Origin: Synechococcales cyanobacterium M55_K2018_004
GTDB taxonomy: Bacteria > Cyanobacteriota > Cyanobacteriia > Elainellales > Elainellaceae
Direction of reading: 5' to 3'
Assembly: GCA_015295905.1 (NCBI GenBank)
Contig: DVEB01000142.1
Location: 1-35,663, forward strand
DNA: 35,663 nucleotides
Of the stretch, positions 7,404 through 15,338 are shown piece by piece. Every line of letters starts with the position of its first letter. Position 1 is the stretch's first letter. Below the pieces are notes generated by a model. It was not told where the DNA came from. It saw only the letters and a list, made by a program, of their open reading frames with translations, and ran no database searches. A program made the position numbers and the translations under genes.

Positions 7404-7507
7404 CTCATGACTGAACTGCAGTGAAGGGAGACTGGCGCCAAATCAGTAGAGTTGGCTCTTCTCTTCACCCAACCCCTCCAAGCCATTGTTTCGCTCTGAA
7501 GTCAAAC

Positions 7508-8191
7508 ATGTCCGATCAAATCGACCCTACTCCCCAACCTGATGCCCAACCTCCTCAAGGGTTGCCTGCGGAACCACTGTCCACGAGCGTCCCCAAGGCT
7601 GCAAATGGTGGGGGCATATCATCCGCATCACAACGACCCGCCGACAATCCCTGGGTTGAAGGACTGAAGACCATTGGGGTGAGCATAGTGTTGGCGTTGG
7701 GCATCCGCACCTTTGTAGCCGAGGCTCGTTACATCCCCTCTGGCTCCATGCTACCAACTCTAGAGATCAACGATCGCCTGATTGTTGAAAAGGTCAGCTA
7801 CCTGTTTCAAAGTCCCAACCGAGGAGACATCATTGTCTTTGTGCCGCCTGACCAGTTAAACCAGCGCAGCTTCAAAGACGCCTTTATTAAGCGGGTGATT
7901 GGTCTACCAGGAGAGAAAATCCAGGTAAAAAATGGCCAGGTCTTTATCAACGACCAACCCTTGACAGAAAACTATCTGGAGTCTCCCCCGGACTATGAAT
8001 GGGGGCCAGAGATCGTTCCAGCGAACTCTTATCTCGTTCTGGGGGATAATCGTAACAACAGTTTTGACAGTCACTTCTGGGGCTTTGTGCCACGCGAAAA
8101 CATTATTGGGCGGGCAGCAGTGCGCTTCTGGCCCCCCAACCGCATTGGGGGTATCGGACCAGAGCCACCTTATCAGACACAGGGCCAGTAG
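7508..8191 (+). CDS. lepB: Signal peptidase I
   Basis: Type I signal peptidase removes signal peptides from exported proteins at the outer face of the plasma or thylakoid membrane. From ATG 7508 the product is 227 residues. A Pro/Gln/Ser-rich cytoplasmic tail (1-48) leads to one membrane segment (about 53-70). The catalytic Ser80 lies in [11 protein letters not shown], and the general-base Lys128 lies in [11 protein letters not shown]. The C-terminal box [19 protein letters not shown] is intact. A frame extension to GTG 7421 is open, but its first 29 residues look like non-coding sequence, so I prefer 7508. Just after the stop, CAGTAGGTTAAA is repeated at 8186-8197 and 8202-8213, the first copy overlapping the end of the gene. 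Confidence 0.95.
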
Positions 8192-8270
8192 GTTAAAAAG
8201 GCAGTAGGTTAAACGACAGTTTTCGGCGGCGGCAATCCCCCCAGGCGGGTTCACACGGCTTACCCACTCA

Positions 8271-8363
8271 CAGGCGTTGCTGATTTAAGCAATGATTGTT
8301 TGAGTGAGGGGCGCACGGAGTGCGCCCCTCACTCAAACAATCATCTTTGGATTAAGCAACGCC
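8271..8363. mobile_element. MITE-like palindromic insertion with 8-bp flanking duplication
   Basis: A perfect 24-bp inverted repeat (8292-8315 and 8321-8344, loop CGGAG) sits inside shorter terminal inverted repeats GGCGTTGCT (8273-8281) and AGCAACGCC (8355-8363). CCCACTCA lies directly on both sides (8263-8270 and 8364-8371), as expected for a target-site duplication. No transposase is encoded, so this would be a non-autonomous element. The hairpin could also end lepB transcription before ureA. Confidence 0.7.
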
Positions 8364-8627
8364 CCCACTCATGTGTCGCCTACCACGGGTCGCCTACAAG
8401 TATGAAGAAAACGGAAAAGAGGACAAAAATCTGGCGCTTGACCTGGAGAATACTGTAACTGTCCTTTCGCTGCTCATCTTCTGAGAACATCGCTGGACGA
8501 GTATCCACTACCCGGCTGAGAGCCGGGGTAATGTCCAGTCGGGGTTCCTGGGCCGTTGTTCTGTGCCTGGTATTCCTGTTCGATGAGATGGATCGATGAA
8601 GATGGGCAAGTTTCCCAAATGTCGCCT
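8364..8627. promoter_or_regulatory. Leader region of ureA with nested stem-loop
   Basis: No gene is seen here. CTGGAC (8493-8498) and GTCCAG (8533-8538) enclose an inner hairpin CCCGGCT/AGCCGGG (8511-8527), giving a possible structured leader about 90 bases before ureA. TTGACC near 8438 followed by weak A/T-rich hexamers could be a promoter. No GTA-N8-TAC NtcA site was found, although urease genes are often nitrogen-controlled. Confidence 0.35.
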
Positions 8628-8930
8628 ATGCAACTCACTCCCCAGGAAAAAGATAAACTACTGATCTTCACTGCTGCGCTGCTGGCCGAACGCCGCAAAG
8701 CTAAAGGACTAAAGCTCAACTATCCCGAAGCAGTTGCATACCTCTCGGCGGCCATTTTGGAGGGAGCCAGAGAAGGGCGCACGGTCGCAGAGTTGATGAG
8801 CTACGGCACGACGTTGTTGACGCGGGATGATGTGATGGAGGGTATCCCCGAAATGTTGCACGAAGTCCAGGTGGAGGCCACCTTTCCCGACGGCACGAAA
8901 CTAGTCACGGTTCATGACCCGATTCGATAA
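8628..8930 (+). CDS. ureA: Urease gamma subunit
   Basis: UreA is the small structural subunit of the nickel enzyme urease, which hydrolyses urea to ammonia and CO2. From ATG 8628 the protein is exactly 100 residues, the usual length. It starts [20 protein letters not shown] and contains [58 protein letters not shown] and a C-terminal LVTVHDPIR, all hallmark blocks. An upstream extension of the frame has no family similarity. ureB follows 25 bp after the stop, and the two are surely co-transcribed. The catalytic subunit gene ureC, usually next, is not in the window. Confidence 0.97.
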
Positions 8931-9461: not shown

Positions 9462-12400
9462 ATGAGTGCAATGCCTCGGTTACCAGGATATCGGATTGTC
9501 GTTTCCCTCTATGAAAGCCCCCAGACACTGGTCTACAGAGGAATTCGGGAGTGCGATCGCCAGCCAGTGGTGATCAAGGTTCCGCGTCACGCCTTTCCTA
9601 GCATTCACGAACTGGTGCAGTTCCGTAACGAGTACACCATTGCCTGCAACCTCAATCACCCCAACATTCTGAAATCTCTTGCCCTGGAGCCTTACCAGAA
9701 CGGGTATGCTCTGGTGATGGAAGATTTTCAGGGGATCTCGCTCAAAGAACAGTTGAAGCAAGCAGGGCCGTGGGGGAATACGCCACAACGCTTGACGGCA
9801 TTTTTTCAAATTGCCCTGCAAGTGGTAGAGGCTCTTGCTGAGCTGCACCATCAGCGTGTGATTCACAAAGACCTCAAGCCCAGCAACATTCTGATCCATC
9901 CAGACACCCGGCAGGTCAAACTGGCGGATTTCAGCCTCGCTTCCCTGCTGCCCCGCGAGACCCAGGAGATACAAGCGGCCCATGCCCTGGAGGGCACCCT
10001 TGCCTATCTGGCACCAGAGCAAACGGGGCGGATGAATCGCGGCATTGACTACCGCAGCGACTTCTATGCCCTGGGGGTCACTTTTTATCAGTTACTCACG
10101 GGGCAGTTGCCGTTTGTTAGCGATGACCCGATGGAGTTAATTCACTGCCATCTGGCAAAACACCCCGTGCCCCCCCATGAAGTCGGGGCTTCAGGATCTA
10201 TCATTCCCGCTGTCCTCTCAGACATTGTTCTGAAACTGATGGCGAAGAATGCTGAAGATCGCTATCAAAGTGCGCTAGGCATCCGGCATGACCTCGAGGA
10301 GTGCCTGGCCCAGTGGCAGGAAAATCTGAGGATCGTGCCCTTTCAGTTAGGTCGGCGAGATGTCAGCGATCGCTTCCTGATTCCCGAAACGCTCTACGGA
10401 CGCGCCCAAGAAGTCCAGACCTTATTGGATGCTTTTGCCCGCGTTGCATCGTTGCCAGAGCATCCCCCCCCTGACCAATCTCAAACTCCCAATCCCCCTT
10501 CCCCAATTCCCAGTCCCAAATCCGAACTGGTGCTGGTCACTGGCTTTTCTGGCATTGGCAAAACGGCTGTCGTGAATGAAGTTCACAAGCCCATTACTCG
10601 ACAGCACGGCTATTTCATCAAAGGCAAATTTGACCAATTTAACCGCAACATCCCCTTTTCTGGTGTGGTGCAGGCTCTGCGCGACCTGATGCGGCAACTG
10701 CTGAGTGAAAGTGATGCCCAGTTGCAGGTGTGGAAGGCTCAGATGCTCGCGGCCCTGGGGGAGAGCGGCCAGGTGATGATTGACGTGATCCCAGAACTGG
10801 AGCAGGTGATTGGCCCCCAACCTGCTGCCGTTGAACTCTCTGGCATGGCAGCCCAGAATCGATTTAATTTACTGTTCCAGAAGTTTATTCAAGTCTTCGC
10901 AACGCCAGCCCATCCGTTGGTGTTGTTCTTAGATGACTTGCAGTGGGCAGATTCTGCCTCCCTCAACCTGATGCACCAGGTGATGACCGAGTTGGACACG
11001 AGCAATCTGCTGCTGATTGGGGCCTATCGCAACAATGAGGTGTCCCCCGCCCACCCCCTGATGCTGGCGATCGCCGCTATTGCCCAAGCCGGGGCTACGG
11101 TCAGCACCATCACGCTGCAACCCCTGACCCCAGCCGATCTCAATCACCTAGTGGCAGATACGCTCCATTGTCCCGAGGCGGTGGCTCACCCCCTCACCAA
11201 GCTAGTAGTTCAGAAAACCCAGGGCAACCCGTTTTTTGTCACCCAGTTTCTCAGAGCGCTGCACCAGGACGGGTTGATTACGTTTGACTGGCAGGCGGGG
11301 CACTGGCAGTGCGATATGGCGCGGGTGCAGGATGCTGCCCTAACGGATGACGTGGTGGAGTTTATGGCGTTGCAGTTGCAAAAGCTGCCTCCTCCAACCC
11401 AGGCGATCCTCAAGTTAGCCGCCTGCATTGGCAATCAATTTGACCTCACCACGCTGGCAATCGTCTCGGAGCAATCGGAAGTCGAAGCAGCAACCCGGCT
11501 GTGGACAGCGTTGCAACAGGGGTTCATTCTACCTCAGAGTCAGATCTACAAGTTTTTCCAGCAGCAGGCCGGCAGCAGTCGTTGGGAGGCGGGCAGTCCG
11601 CGAGAAACGATTGCTGATTTCTCGCGGCAGGATTCTGGCACCTGTGCCTATCGGTTTCTCCACGACCGCGTCCAGCAGGCGGCCTATTCCCTCATCCCAG
11701 ACGACCAGAAACAGACGACCCATTACCACATCGGCCAATTGCTGTTGCAGCAAACCTCTGCCGCCGAGCGAGAGGAGCGCATTTTTGAACTGGTGAACCA
11801 ACTCAACTGGGGCACCGCGCTGATGACCGACCAAGCCGATCGCGACGAGCTTGCCCACCTCAACCTGATTGCTGCGCGTAGGGCAAAAGCAGCAACAGCC
11901 TATCAAGCCGGACGGGACTATGCCGCCTTGGGTCTGTCGTTGCTAGGAGCGGCAGCTTGGCAACGGCAGTATGGCCTTACCCTGGCCCTGCATGAACTCG
12001 CCGCAGAATCGGCCTCCCTGTGTGGTGACTTTGCGGCGATGGAGCAGTGGATTGATGCTGTGATTGAACAAGCGAATACCCTACTGGAAACAATCCCCGT
12101 TTACCGCACAAGGATTCTGGCCAGTGTCTACCAAAACAAGCTGACCGAAGCCATTGCCATTGGGCAACAGACCCTACAGCGGTTGGGCGTGCAGTTTCCC
12201 GAAACTCCCACCCCCACTGATATTCACCAGCAGATTCAGGCGATCGCCGAGTTGATTGGCGATCGCACTATTGAGGAGTTAGTCCAACTCCCGCTGATGA
12301 CTGATCCGACCCATCTTGCCATTACCCAGATCGCCAGTAGCCTATTAGGCACTGCTTACCTGTCGGGTTCGCCCCTATACCCACTGCTGGTGATGTTGGG

Positions 12401-15338
12401 TGTCAGGCTCTCAATTCAGTCGGGTAACACCCTTGCTTCACCCGTCAGCTATGCCTTCTATGGGGCAATTTTGTGCAACCTGTTGCAGGATGTGGAGACA
12501 GGCGTGCAGTTTGGCCAATTGGCACTGAACATTGTTTCCGCCCTGGAGGCCAAAGTTGCGAAACCGGAAGTCATTGGTGCTGTAGTCGCATTTATTCTGC
12601 ACCGCAAACACCACCTCAGAGACCTACTGCCGATTGCCAAAGAGGGCTACACAACGGGGCTGGAGGTCGGCAGTCTGGAATATGCCGGTTACAATGCGAT
12701 TCTGTTTTGCGTCAAGGCGTTTAACTGTGGTCAGCCGCTGGCCACTCTAGAGCCAGAAGTGCGCGCTTACTCCAATGGCATGGTCCAACTGCACCAACTG
12801 ACCGCTGCTAACTATTGTTGGATCATCTGGCAGTCAATCTTAAATTTGCTGGGCCGTTCAGACCATCCCACCCGTTTGTCGGGAGAAGCATTACAGGAAG
12901 CGGAGTTTTTGCCATCCCTGCTCTCCGCCAACGATCCGGGGAAGTTGTTTCAGTTTTATCTCTATAAGGCGATGCTGTGCTTCCTGTTTGAGGACATTGC
13001 CGCCGCTATGACCCAGATCACAGCGGCCCGGCAATACTTAAGCGGAGCCGTTGGCCTGGTTGGTGAACCAACGCTCTATTACTATGACTCTTTGATTGCG
13101 ATCGCCCACTGGGAGCAATCTCAGGATGACTCAGGGGATAACTTGGCTGCGGTGTTGCAGCGCGTGGCAGAGAACCAAGCCCAGTTACAACAAGCCTGGG
13201 CACAGTATGCCCCGATGAATTACCAGCACAAGGTGGACTTGGTGACTGCTGAACACTATCGCGTCTTAGGGAAACACTACGAAGCCGCAGACTGGTATGA
13301 TCGTGCGATCGCAAGAGCCAGAGAAAACGGTTACATCCAGGACGCTGCCTTGGGCAATGAACTGGCTGCCCGGTTCTACCTCCAGTGGGGCAAAGACAAG
13401 GTTGCGGCAGGTTATCTGCAAGATGCTTACTACGACTACGCCCGTTGGGGAGCAAAAGCCAAAACCGATGACCTGGAAAATCGCTATCCTCAGCTTCTAG
13501 GACCGCTCTTCCAAGCGCAACACCACCACGTGATCCTCAGTCACACCAACCGCCAAACGGCGAAAACTGCTGCCGCGTTTGACCAACCTAGTCAGACCAG
13601 TCTATCCAGTCAGGCCAGTCAATCTAGCCGTTACTTGTCTGCTGCGACGCTTGATTTCGCCAGCGTCCTCAAAGCTTCTCAGGCGTTATCGAGTGAAATT
13701 CACCTCGATCAATTGGTGGCCAAACTGCTCCAGGTCGTGATGGAAAACGCTGGGGCCAAAAAGGCAGCCCTACTGATTGCCCAAGACGATAGCTTGGCAA
13801 TTGAAGCCGTGGCCACCCTAAGCGATGCGGGTAGCACATTGTTCTCGGTGCCTCTTGCCATCAGCGAGGGCATTCCCCTCAGCTTGGTGAACTACGTCAA
13901 ACACAGCTTAAAGACTGTGGTTCTGGATGACGCAACCGCTCAGACAGAGTTTACGGCTGATCCCTATCTGCTGAGTCACCAACCTAGGAGCGTGTTGTGT
14001 ACGCCTATCCTGAATCAGGGGAAGTTTATCGGGCTATTGTATTTGGAAAATCCGTTGACTGTCGCTGCCTTTACTCGCGATCGCCTGGAAGTGATCCACC
14101 TGCTCTGCACCCAAGCTGCGATTTCTTTAGAAAATGCTCGTCTATATCGCAACCTCCAGGCCAGCGAAGCCCGCTATCAACGGCTGGCCGAAAACGTTCC
14201 TGGGGTGATTTATCAGTTTCGGCTGAGTCCTGAGGGGCAGCAGCATCTGTCCTACATCAGCCCCCGCTGTATTGAAATGTTTGAAGTAGAGCCGGAGCTC
14301 ATTCTGGCAGATGCTCAGGCGATTCTGGGTATGGTTCATCCAGACGACTCCGTTAAGTTTGAGCAGTCTATCCTGGCCTCAGCCCAAACCCTACAATCCT
14401 GGCAGTGGGTAGGCCGCATTCGGTTGCCCTCGGGTCGGGTCAAATGGATTCAGGGAGGCTCCCGACCGGAACGCCAGTCGGATGGGGCGATTGTTTGGGA
14501 TGGCATCCTGATGGATGTGAGCGATCGCAAACAGGCAGAGTCAGACATTCTGCTGCTCAACCAGGCGCTGGAACAACAAAATCAAAACCTAGAGGCCCTA
14601 GTCGAGCAACGCACGGCAGAACTCATGCGTCGGACTGTCCAGCTAGAGGCCAGCAATCGAGAGCTGGAATTTTTCTCCTATTCGGTCTCTCATGATCTAC
14701 GCGCTCCCCTGCGCCATATCAATGGCTTCGTCAGTGCCCTACAACAGCAATTGCAGAACCACCATGCTCTGTCTGACCCTAAAGTTGACCATTATGTGCA
14801 GGTCATTCAAAACAGTAGCCAGAAAATGGCACTCTTAATCGACAGCCTCCTCGATCTCTCTCGCATTGGGCGCAAACCCATGCAGTATCAACCCGTGAAC
14901 CTGCGACAACTGGTGGATGAAGCGATCGCCTCATTGCAGCACAATCCAGACCTCGAAACTACAGCGGAATTTGTCATTGGTGAGTTGCCCACTGTCCAGG
15001 GGGATGCCCGATTGCTGCAACAGGTCTTGAATAATCTGGTTAGCAACGCCGTTAAATTCAGCCGTAACCATCCCACTCCCCACATTGAAATCGGTAGTTT
15101 GCCGGCGGGAGTGATCTTCATTCGCGACAATGGGGCTGGGTTTGATATGCAGTATGCCGACAAGCTCTTTGGACCGTTTCAGCGGTTACACACTGCAACG
15201 GAATTTGAGGGCACCGGCATCGGACTGGCGATTGTGCAACGGATCATCCATCGTCATGGCGGCAAAGTTTGGGCCGAGAGCCAGCCCAACCAAGGCGCTA
15301 CCTTCTATTTCACCCTGGGCGGTTCTGCCCATCCGTAA
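9462..15338 (+). CDS. Trifunctional Ser/Thr kinase / AAA ATPase / GAF-PAS sensor histidine kinase
   Basis: This is a 1958-residue soluble signalling protein. Residues 1-280 form a Hanks-type kinase: Lys39 in VVIKVP, catalytic loop HKDLKPSNI (135-143), and ADFSLAS (155-161) where DFG is usual. Residues 305-500 form an AAA/NACHT-like ATPase with Walker A GFSGIGKTAV (361-370) and Walker B VLFLDDLQWAD. A long helical, TPR-like region reaches about 1390. A GAF domain (about 1400-1555), a PAS domain (about 1568-1690, ending DVSDRKQAE) and a short coiled coil follow. The histidine kinase has phospho-acceptor His1744 in SVSHDLRAPLRHI, an N box near 1855 (NNLVSNAVKFS), a DNGAGFD box at 1889 and a GTGIGL box at 1917. 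No receiver or membrane segment is seen. The architecture is known from cyanobacteria; the stimulus and targets are unknown. Confidence 0.93.
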   Translation: MSAMPRLPGYRIVVSLYESPQTLVYRGIRECDRQPVVIKVPRHAFPSIHELVQFRNEYTIACNLNHPNILKSLALEPYQNGYALVMEDFQGISLKEQLKQAGPWGNTPQRLTAFFQIALQVVEALAELHHQRVIHKDLKPSNILIHPDTRQVKLADFSLASLLPRETQEIQAAHALEGTLAYLAPEQTGRMNRGIDYRSDFYALGVTFYQLLTGQLPFVSDDPMELIHCHLAKHPVPPHEVGASGSIIPAVLSDIVLKLMAKNAEDRYQSALGIRHDLEECLAQWQENLRIVPFQLGRRDVSDRFLIPETLYGRAQEVQTLLDAFARVASLPEHPPPDQSQTPNPPSPIPSPKSELVLVTGFSGIGKTAVVNEVHKPITRQHGYFIKGKFDQFNRNIPFSGVVQALRDLMRQLLSESDAQLQVWKAQMLAALGESGQVMIDVIPELEQVIGPQPAAVELSGMAAQNRFNLLFQKFIQVFATPAHPLVLFLDDLQWADSASLNLMHQVMTELDTSNLLLIGAYRNNEVSPAHPLMLAIAAIAQAGATVSTITLQPLTPADLNHLVADTLHCPEAVAHPLTKLVVQKTQGNPFFVTQFLRALHQDGLITFDWQAGHWQCDMARVQDAALTDDVVEFMALQLQKLPPPTQAILKLAACIGNQFDLTTLAIVSEQSEVEAATRLWTALQQGFILPQSQIYKFFQQQAGSSRWEAGSPRETIADFSRQDSGTCAYRFLHDRVQQAAYSLIPDDQKQTTHYHIGQLLLQQTSAAEREERIFELVNQLNWGTALMTDQADRDELAHLNLIAARRAKAATAYQAGRDYAALGLSLLGAAAWQRQYGLTLALHELAAESASLCGDFAAMEQWIDAVIEQANTLLETIPVYRTRILASVYQNKLTEAIAIGQQTLQRLGVQFPETPTPTDIHQQIQAIAELIGDRTIEELVQLPLMTDPTHLAITQIASSLLGTAYLSGSPLYPLLVMLGVRLSIQSGNTLASPVSYAFYGAILCNLLQDVETGVQFGQLALNIVSALEAKVAKPEVIGAVVAFILHRKHHLRDLLPIAKEGYTTGLEVGSLEYAGYNAILFCVKAFNCGQPLATLEPEVRAYSNGMVQLHQLTAANYCWIIWQSILNLLGRSDHPTRLSGEALQEAEFLPSLLSANDPGKLFQFYLYKAMLCFLFEDIAAAMTQITAARQYLSGAVGLVGEPTLYYYDSLIAIAHWEQSQDDSGDNLAAVLQRVAENQAQLQQAWAQYAPMNYQHKVDLVTAEHYRVLGKHYEAADWYDRAIARARENGYIQDAALGNELAARFYLQWGKDKVAAGYLQDAYYDYARWGAKAKTDDLENRYPQLLGPLFQAQHHHVILSHTNRQTAKTAAAFDQPSQTSLSSQASQSSRYLSAATLDFASVLKASQALSSEIHLDQLVAKLLQVVMENAGAKKAALLIAQDDSLAIEAVATLSDAGSTLFSVPLAISEGIPLSLVNYVKHSLKTVVLDDATAQTEFTADPYLLSHQPRSVLCTPILNQGKFIGLLYLENPLTVAAFTRDRLEVIHLLCTQAAISLENARLYRNLQASEARYQRLAENVPGVIYQFRLSPEGQQHLSYISPRCIEMFEVEPELILADAQAILGMVHPDDSVKFEQSILASAQTLQSWQWVGRIRLPSGRVKWIQGGSRPERQSDGAIVWDGILMDVSDRKQAESDILLLNQALEQQNQNLEALVEQRTAELMRRTVQLEASNRELEFFSYSVSHDLRAPLRHINGFVSALQQQLQNHHALSDPKVDHYVQVIQNSSQKMALLIDSLLDLSRIGRKPMQYQPVNLRQLVDEAIASLQHNPDLETTAEFVIGELPTVQGDARLLQQVLNNLVSNAVKFSRNHPTPHIEIGSLPAGVIFIRDNGAGFDMQYADKLFGPFQRLHTATEFEGTGIGLAIVQRIIHRHGGKVWAESQPNQGATFYFTLGGSAHP

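Follow-up and report, generated by a model that had tools for sequence, protein, structure and literature searches.

A palindromic MITE, probably of the IS1 family, between lepB and ureA in a Synechococcales cyanobacterium

Results

A 91-bp palindromic element lies between lepB and ureA

The window, by which we mean the whole stretch of DNA analysed (35,663 nucleotides of contig DVEB01000142.1 from Synechococcales cyanobacterium M55_K2018_004), carries the genes for signal peptidase I and the urease gamma subunit on the same strand, with a short palindromic unit between them. The features of the region are:

7421–8191, forward strand: lepB, signal peptidase I, left of the element
8263–8270, no strand: probable left copy of the 8-bp target duplication, CCCACTCA (from the sequence and the family signal at lag 8)
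8271–8272, no strand: extra CA between the left duplication and the element
8273–8363, forward strand: 91-bp MITE, likely a non-autonomous IS1-family element; left end GGCGTTGCTGATTTAA, right end (reverse strand) GGCGTTGCTTAATCC
8292–8344, no strand: perfect 25-bp inner stem with a 3-nt loop at 8317–8319 (from folding; the arms co-vary among copies)
8364–8371, no strand: probable right copy of the 8-bp target duplication, CCCACTCA (from the sequence and the family signal at lag 8)
8386–8498, forward strand: decayed 3′ remnant of an nhaC-like antiporter gene (from DNA similarity, alignment and a weak protein match); it may extend, less clearly, to about 8627
8628–8930, forward strand: ureA, urease gamma subunit, right of the element

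The arms of the element, 8273–8316 and 8320–8363, are inverted, 84% complementary and spaced by 3 nt. In a single-strand fold, the outer stem begins at 8273/8363 and the inner stem pairs 8292–8316 with 8320–8344. The fold has a predicted energy of −68.1 kcal/mol (z = −12.66), and none of 200 shuffled sequences was equally stable. The unit was originally predicted to be 93 bp long with a perfect 24-bp stem. The length includes the CA at 8271–8272 and is actually 91 bp; the stem is indeed perfect but comprises 25 bp. No open reading frame of 80 aa or more was listed over this short element with its inverted ends.

Several other features were seen nearby. An imperfect 14-bp tandem repeat (CATGTGTCGCCTAC / CACGGGTCGCCTAC) lies directly to the right of the element (8370–8397), and two exact copies of CAGTAGGTTAAA occupy 8186–8213, of which the first extends over the end of lepB. 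A 1958-aa protein is encoded at 9462–15338, further downstream than ureA and ureB; by eye it looks like a kinase/histidine-kinase fusion.

Copies are dispersed in the genome and occur in other cyanobacteria

Searching the genome of the organism itself (a 5.01-Mb draft in 362 contigs) gave matches to the element at 40 or more places with E < 1e-16. This number is a tally from 83 pieces listed at E values of 10 or less, including four weak ones (E > 0.03), and since 40 of 116 first-look candidates were scored in this search, the copies may number more than 40. The end motif GGCRTTGCTKAWTYNAR, with at most one mismatch, occurred 121 times in the same genome, compared with once for the backward control.

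Some copies deviate from the simple form. The right or left end is repeated in L010 (938–1052) and L008 (1481–1585), as if these copies had been partly duplicated. Other hairpin subfamilies of this genome (L318 201–274, L033 1427–1517, L045 1501–1591) combine the same ends with a shorter or different middle, for example GATGGGGAGGCGTG. Wider pairs of ends were rejected as single elements: a 2.03-kb pair on contig C266 encloses a gene for an AMP-binding enzyme with MITE-like hairpins on either side, and the two wide pairs that were read (in L158 and L203) each consist of two MITEs plus ordinary genes.

Among 30 related genomes, including that of the organism, the unit was matched in three: G000, G017 (19 pieces) and G003 (one piece). 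The middle of the G017 copies is related to, yet different from, that of the window unit. The exact left end, GGCRTTGCTGATTTAA, was present in 16 of 291 genomes at the class level, again counting the organism itself. Scanning a sequence collection with a consensus end retrieved at least 114 stretches, and all 80 of the matches listed carry cyanobacterial names. When plasmids were searched with the MITE itself, a single Salmonella match at chance level (E 0.7) was returned; the same search of phages gave zero matches. Two end patterns run against viral contigs found zero and one stretch, respectively, and no IS1 relatives were found there.

An 8-bp target duplication is a property of the family

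For 57 hairpin elements of the organism's genome, each having both ends paired, we compared the two flanks. The sample includes 36 of the 40 places with E < 1e-16, the rest having come from a motif search; 9 of the 57 exceed three end mismatches and are possibly not real members. Identity between the two flanks was 0.658 at lag 8, compared with 0.248–0.255 for mismatched control pairs, and stayed near background at the other lags (0.247–0.316 for lags 5–7 and 9–14). Perfect abutting 8-mers were found in 13 of the 57 elements (1 of 3192 control pairs) and were absent from the remaining 44, and at least six of the eight flank positions matched in 30 (14 of 3192 controls). With a 2-nt shift allowed, a run of seven or more matching bases occurred in 16 elements and in 3 of 3192 controls. 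As flank identity rises at lag 8 alone, an 8-bp target duplication is a property of the family.

Sites without an insertion were sought by joining the flanks of 40 elements. No gene-based empty site could be demonstrated: a frame of at least 150 aa crossed the joint in seven of the 40, and by eye these frames lay near gene ends or were not genes.

The window copy adjoins a new junction upstream of ureA

To place the window copy in its genomic context, we compared ureA and lepB loci among relatives. ureA was detected in 36 of 40 genomes, and 30 loci were kept, including that of the window. None of the other 29 has lepB within 1.5 kb of ureA, and no empty site for the window copy was found, because the gene arrangement itself is not shared. 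Instead, nine of these 29 loci have an nhaC-like antiporter gene directly upstream of ureA; the two such genes tested matched TIGR00931 with E 2.5e-71 and 3.1e-69, below the family cut-off. In the window, 8396–8498 resembles the 3′ part of the nhaC-like gene (82% over 62 bp to L291, E 6e-12). A weak protein match covers 8386–8478 (55% over 31 aa, E 0.011), and in the alignment the remnant has a stop where the relatives read on. No further match to the nhaC-like gene was found in the organism's genome. On the other side, a pyrC match, partial in some cases, adjoins lepB in 14 of 17 other lepB loci.

The nine nhaC–ureA neighbours and the remnant here place the element beside a new junction: a pyrC–lepB block has come to lie against the ureA side, the nhaC-like gene has been largely lost, and the element adjoins the junction. 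The insertion had been predicted to separate lepB from ureA. It does lie between them, but they are not an old gene pair, given the nhaC-like neighbour in nine of 29 loci and its remnant in the window. A close hairpin (three or fewer end mismatches) was absent from all 29 ureA and 17 lepB loci, so the unit was not seen at the same site in distant genomes. Weaker candidates (4–6 end mismatches) were present at eight of the 29 ureA and four of the 17 lepB loci.

The proposed 8-bp duplication at the window copy is present on both sides as CCCACTCA; the right copy abuts the element, whereas the left copy stands 2 nt off its end. The extra CA is best read as a slip after insertion (CTCA to CTCACA), which we consider likelier than a 10-bp duplication because the family shows background identity at lag 10.

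This shift, together with the position of the element within ≈ 25 bp of a real synteny junction, raises the question of whether any transposition took place here. Recombination between two MITE copies, of which many were available as partners, could have joined pyrC–lepB to the ureA side and left CCCACTCA on both flanks by chance; the strictly abutting 8-mers agree at just five of eight bases, the full repeat requiring the 2-nt shift. Such a coincidence would be rare, however. A repeat of eight or more with a 2-nt shift was found in one of 3192 control pairs made by mismatching the flanks of family members, and an 8-base repeat around a 91-nt unit, with a shift of up to 2 nt, at four of 35548 positions in the window, a count that includes the present site. 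Moreover, 14–24 bp in which no nhaC similarity was detected separate the end of the right repeat (8371) from the start of the remnant (8386 by protein, 8396 by DNA). We therefore regard recombination as an unlikely origin and retain insertion by transposition. Provided that CCCACTCA is a genuine duplication, the element arrived after the junction had formed, or earlier within the left-hand DNA; it need not have caused the junction.

Paired changes in the hairpin stem

Co-variation was analysed in an alignment of 29 copies. These were drawn from 40 copies with three or fewer end mismatches and lengths of 80–105 bp; of the 33 with 88–93 bp, L035, L052, L056 and L087 were omitted. In the stem, 91.3% of the cells pair, and 18 of the 42 stem pairs show changes on both sides. 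Cells changed on both sides numbered 49, compared with 14.8 ± 2.9 in shuffles and 3–13 in slid controls, counts that kinship among the copies can inflate. Of the 18 doubly changed pairs, the inner stem accounts for 16; double changes are rare at the outer ends, a pattern that a protein-binding site would be expected to show. When 40 copies were oriented by their ends, the centre read CGGAG in 14, CTCCG in 7 and otherwise in 19. The centre thus appears to invert, and this suggests that palindrome dynamics during replication are one cause of the stem pairing; selection on the hairpin structure may also have kept it.

The very stable fold and the co-varying arms would also suit a functional host element maintained between lepB and ureA, for instance a terminator or structured RNA, and three terminator-like matches were found in the unit where 0.5 were expected in the 551-base region. 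The T run that would follow the outer stem is absent, however, and no Rfam family reached the gathering threshold in the window. The copies are also dispersed and have target duplications, and a close element is missing from the other ureA and lepB loci examined. A host function of this kind is therefore very improbable, and a mobile element remains the preferred reading.

Some IS1-family elements share the ends and the duplication

The end sequence and the 8-bp lag led us to test IS1 as the parent. The IS1 transposase profile PF03400 matched in seven of eight genomes tested, all eight of which hold such ends or elements; the organism's own draft genome (362 contigs) gave no match. Thirty IS1 loci from relatives (L244–L273), some of them cut by contig ends, were scored for exact GGCRTTGC at a fitting distance. 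It was present on both sides in 6, on one side in 6 and on neither side in 18, among them the best-scoring locus, L244. Thus, only some IS1 elements have MITE-type ends. The clearest chromosomal IS1 (L248, 1420–2211) encodes a 231-aa transposase (NF033558, E 7e-66), and one side of the copy in L273 starts with AGCGTTGC. By eye, a clear 8-bp repeat was not seen at the chromosomal copies whose ends were read (L246, L248, L255, L273).

A protein search of plasmids returned 51 records, and 12 regions, all cyanobacterial, were fetched (H2–H12, H14). Ends were picked by motif and mutual similarity, independently of any duplication. Ten of the 12 regions have GGCGTTGC at both ends, and an exact 8-bp duplication, the length found in the MITE family, flanks seven, the other five matching at 2–6 of 8 bases. 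The elements are 754–896 bp long. Compared with the window unit over 22 bases at each end, the element of Microcystis NIES-2481 agrees at 37 of 44 positions, those of Geminocystis and Stanieria at 36 and the others at 28–35. In the Geminocystis IS1 (L359, 216–1111), a 13-bp inverted repeat, AAGTGGCGCTGCG, lies inside both ends; deletion between these repeats could yield a hairpin MITE.

The organism's genome holds a decayed IS1: a C-terminal transposase stub (33 aa, 64% identity, E 3.9e-7) adjoins an end, GGCGTTGCTGAATAGCGGG / GGCGTTGCTGAATAGCGGGAGGAATC, that resembles an IS1 end in G017. The proposal that an IS with matching ends would be found in this genome thus holds for a decayed end and not for an intact element, which could still sit in an assembly gap; IS1 elements with such ends exist on cyanobacterial plasmids and in relatives, so related IS ends are not lacking altogether. 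We conclude that the parent is likely the IS1 family. The original prediction of a MITE-like insertion is borne out by the 40 or more places, the family-wide 8-bp duplication and the IS1 elements with matching ends.

Two other transposase families were considered. DDE_Tnp_1 (PF01609) gave seven matches and was rejected: at none of the seven loci is the gene enclosed by two end motifs facing each other, and the end-motif matches seen there were single and loose (2–3 mismatches of 17). An ISL3-type parent, as the authors of the 187-bp MITE of Microcystis PCC 7806 propose for that element, would share the duplication length, and the Microcystis MITE (PMC11448079) resembles the window family in its stem-loop, 8-nt repeats and ends beginning GGC, but these ends (GGCTCTTCG) and the ISL3 link differ; as IS1 elements with MITE-type ends were found, and as PF01610 had no match in the organism's genome, an ISL3 parent has next to no probability.

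Discussion

The element is of an ordinary kind, and its parent family is well supported. Taking the evidence together, we consider it very probable that the unit is a palindromic IS1-family MITE that was moved by IS1, made an 8-bp duplication and inserted near the lepB/ureA junction. Its likely history can be outlined from what was observed directly, namely the copies, their ends, the signal at a lag of 8 bp, IS1 elements that share both the ends and the duplication, the stub of an IS1 transposase and the nhaC remnant. An IS1-type transposase would recognise the ends GGCRTTGCTKA...ATGA and move the element, which has no gene of its own and whose long hairpin middle appears to come from a source other than IS1. 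Insertion would duplicate 8 bp of target (here CCCACTCA), and slippage then probably added the CA on the left. Its spread to about 40 places would date from a time when the genome had an IS1 transposase. Because a transposase stub is all that was found in the draft genome, present-day copies probably cannot move, unless an assembly gap conceals a transposase or one is newly acquired. The present insertion would have occurred close to the junction of pyrC–lepB with the ureA side, in one of the orders given above.

Cyanobacterial IS1 elements on plasmids of Geminocystis NIES-3708, Calothrix 336/3, Nostoc C052/C057, Cylindrospermopsis, Gloeothece and Tolypothrix share with the window unit the ends GGCGTTGC..(usually AAT)..ATG and the 8-bp duplication. 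In contrast to them, the unit has no transposase and has a long hairpin middle, and by eye the MITEs and IS1 elements have only ≈ 24 bp at each outer end in common. Among cyanobacterial MITEs, Nezha (Zhou 2008) reportedly has 24-bp ends and 8-bp repeats; the likeness to our family is one of description. Two papers that cite it state that Nezha was proposed to be moved by ISNpu3-like elements (PMC3049150, PMC10969869). The 147 type II MITEs of Anabaena sp. 90 resemble our family by description, in that the IS elements of their own genome lack ends that match them (PMC3542288). A text search for an IS1-linked cyanobacterial MITE found none, which does not by itself establish absence from the literature. 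Paper texts gave zero matches to the end motif together with cyanobacteria and inverted repeats, and the listed matches to the motif alone look like primers in unrelated papers.

A wider scheme can be put forward tentatively, although we think it rather unlikely as a whole: a phylum-wide cyanobacterial superfamily of palindromic MITEs with IS1 ends and lineage-specific, non-IS1 hairpin middles, in which pairing would be kept stepwise through folded-strand transposition or arm repair at replication.

The analysis ties a widespread type of cyanobacterial MITE to a likely parent family, IS1, and offers a test case for MITEs that seem to outlive their transposase. One copy adjoins a rearrangement in which an antiporter gene neighbouring urease was lost, and the paired stem changes provide data on how palindromes stay palindromic.
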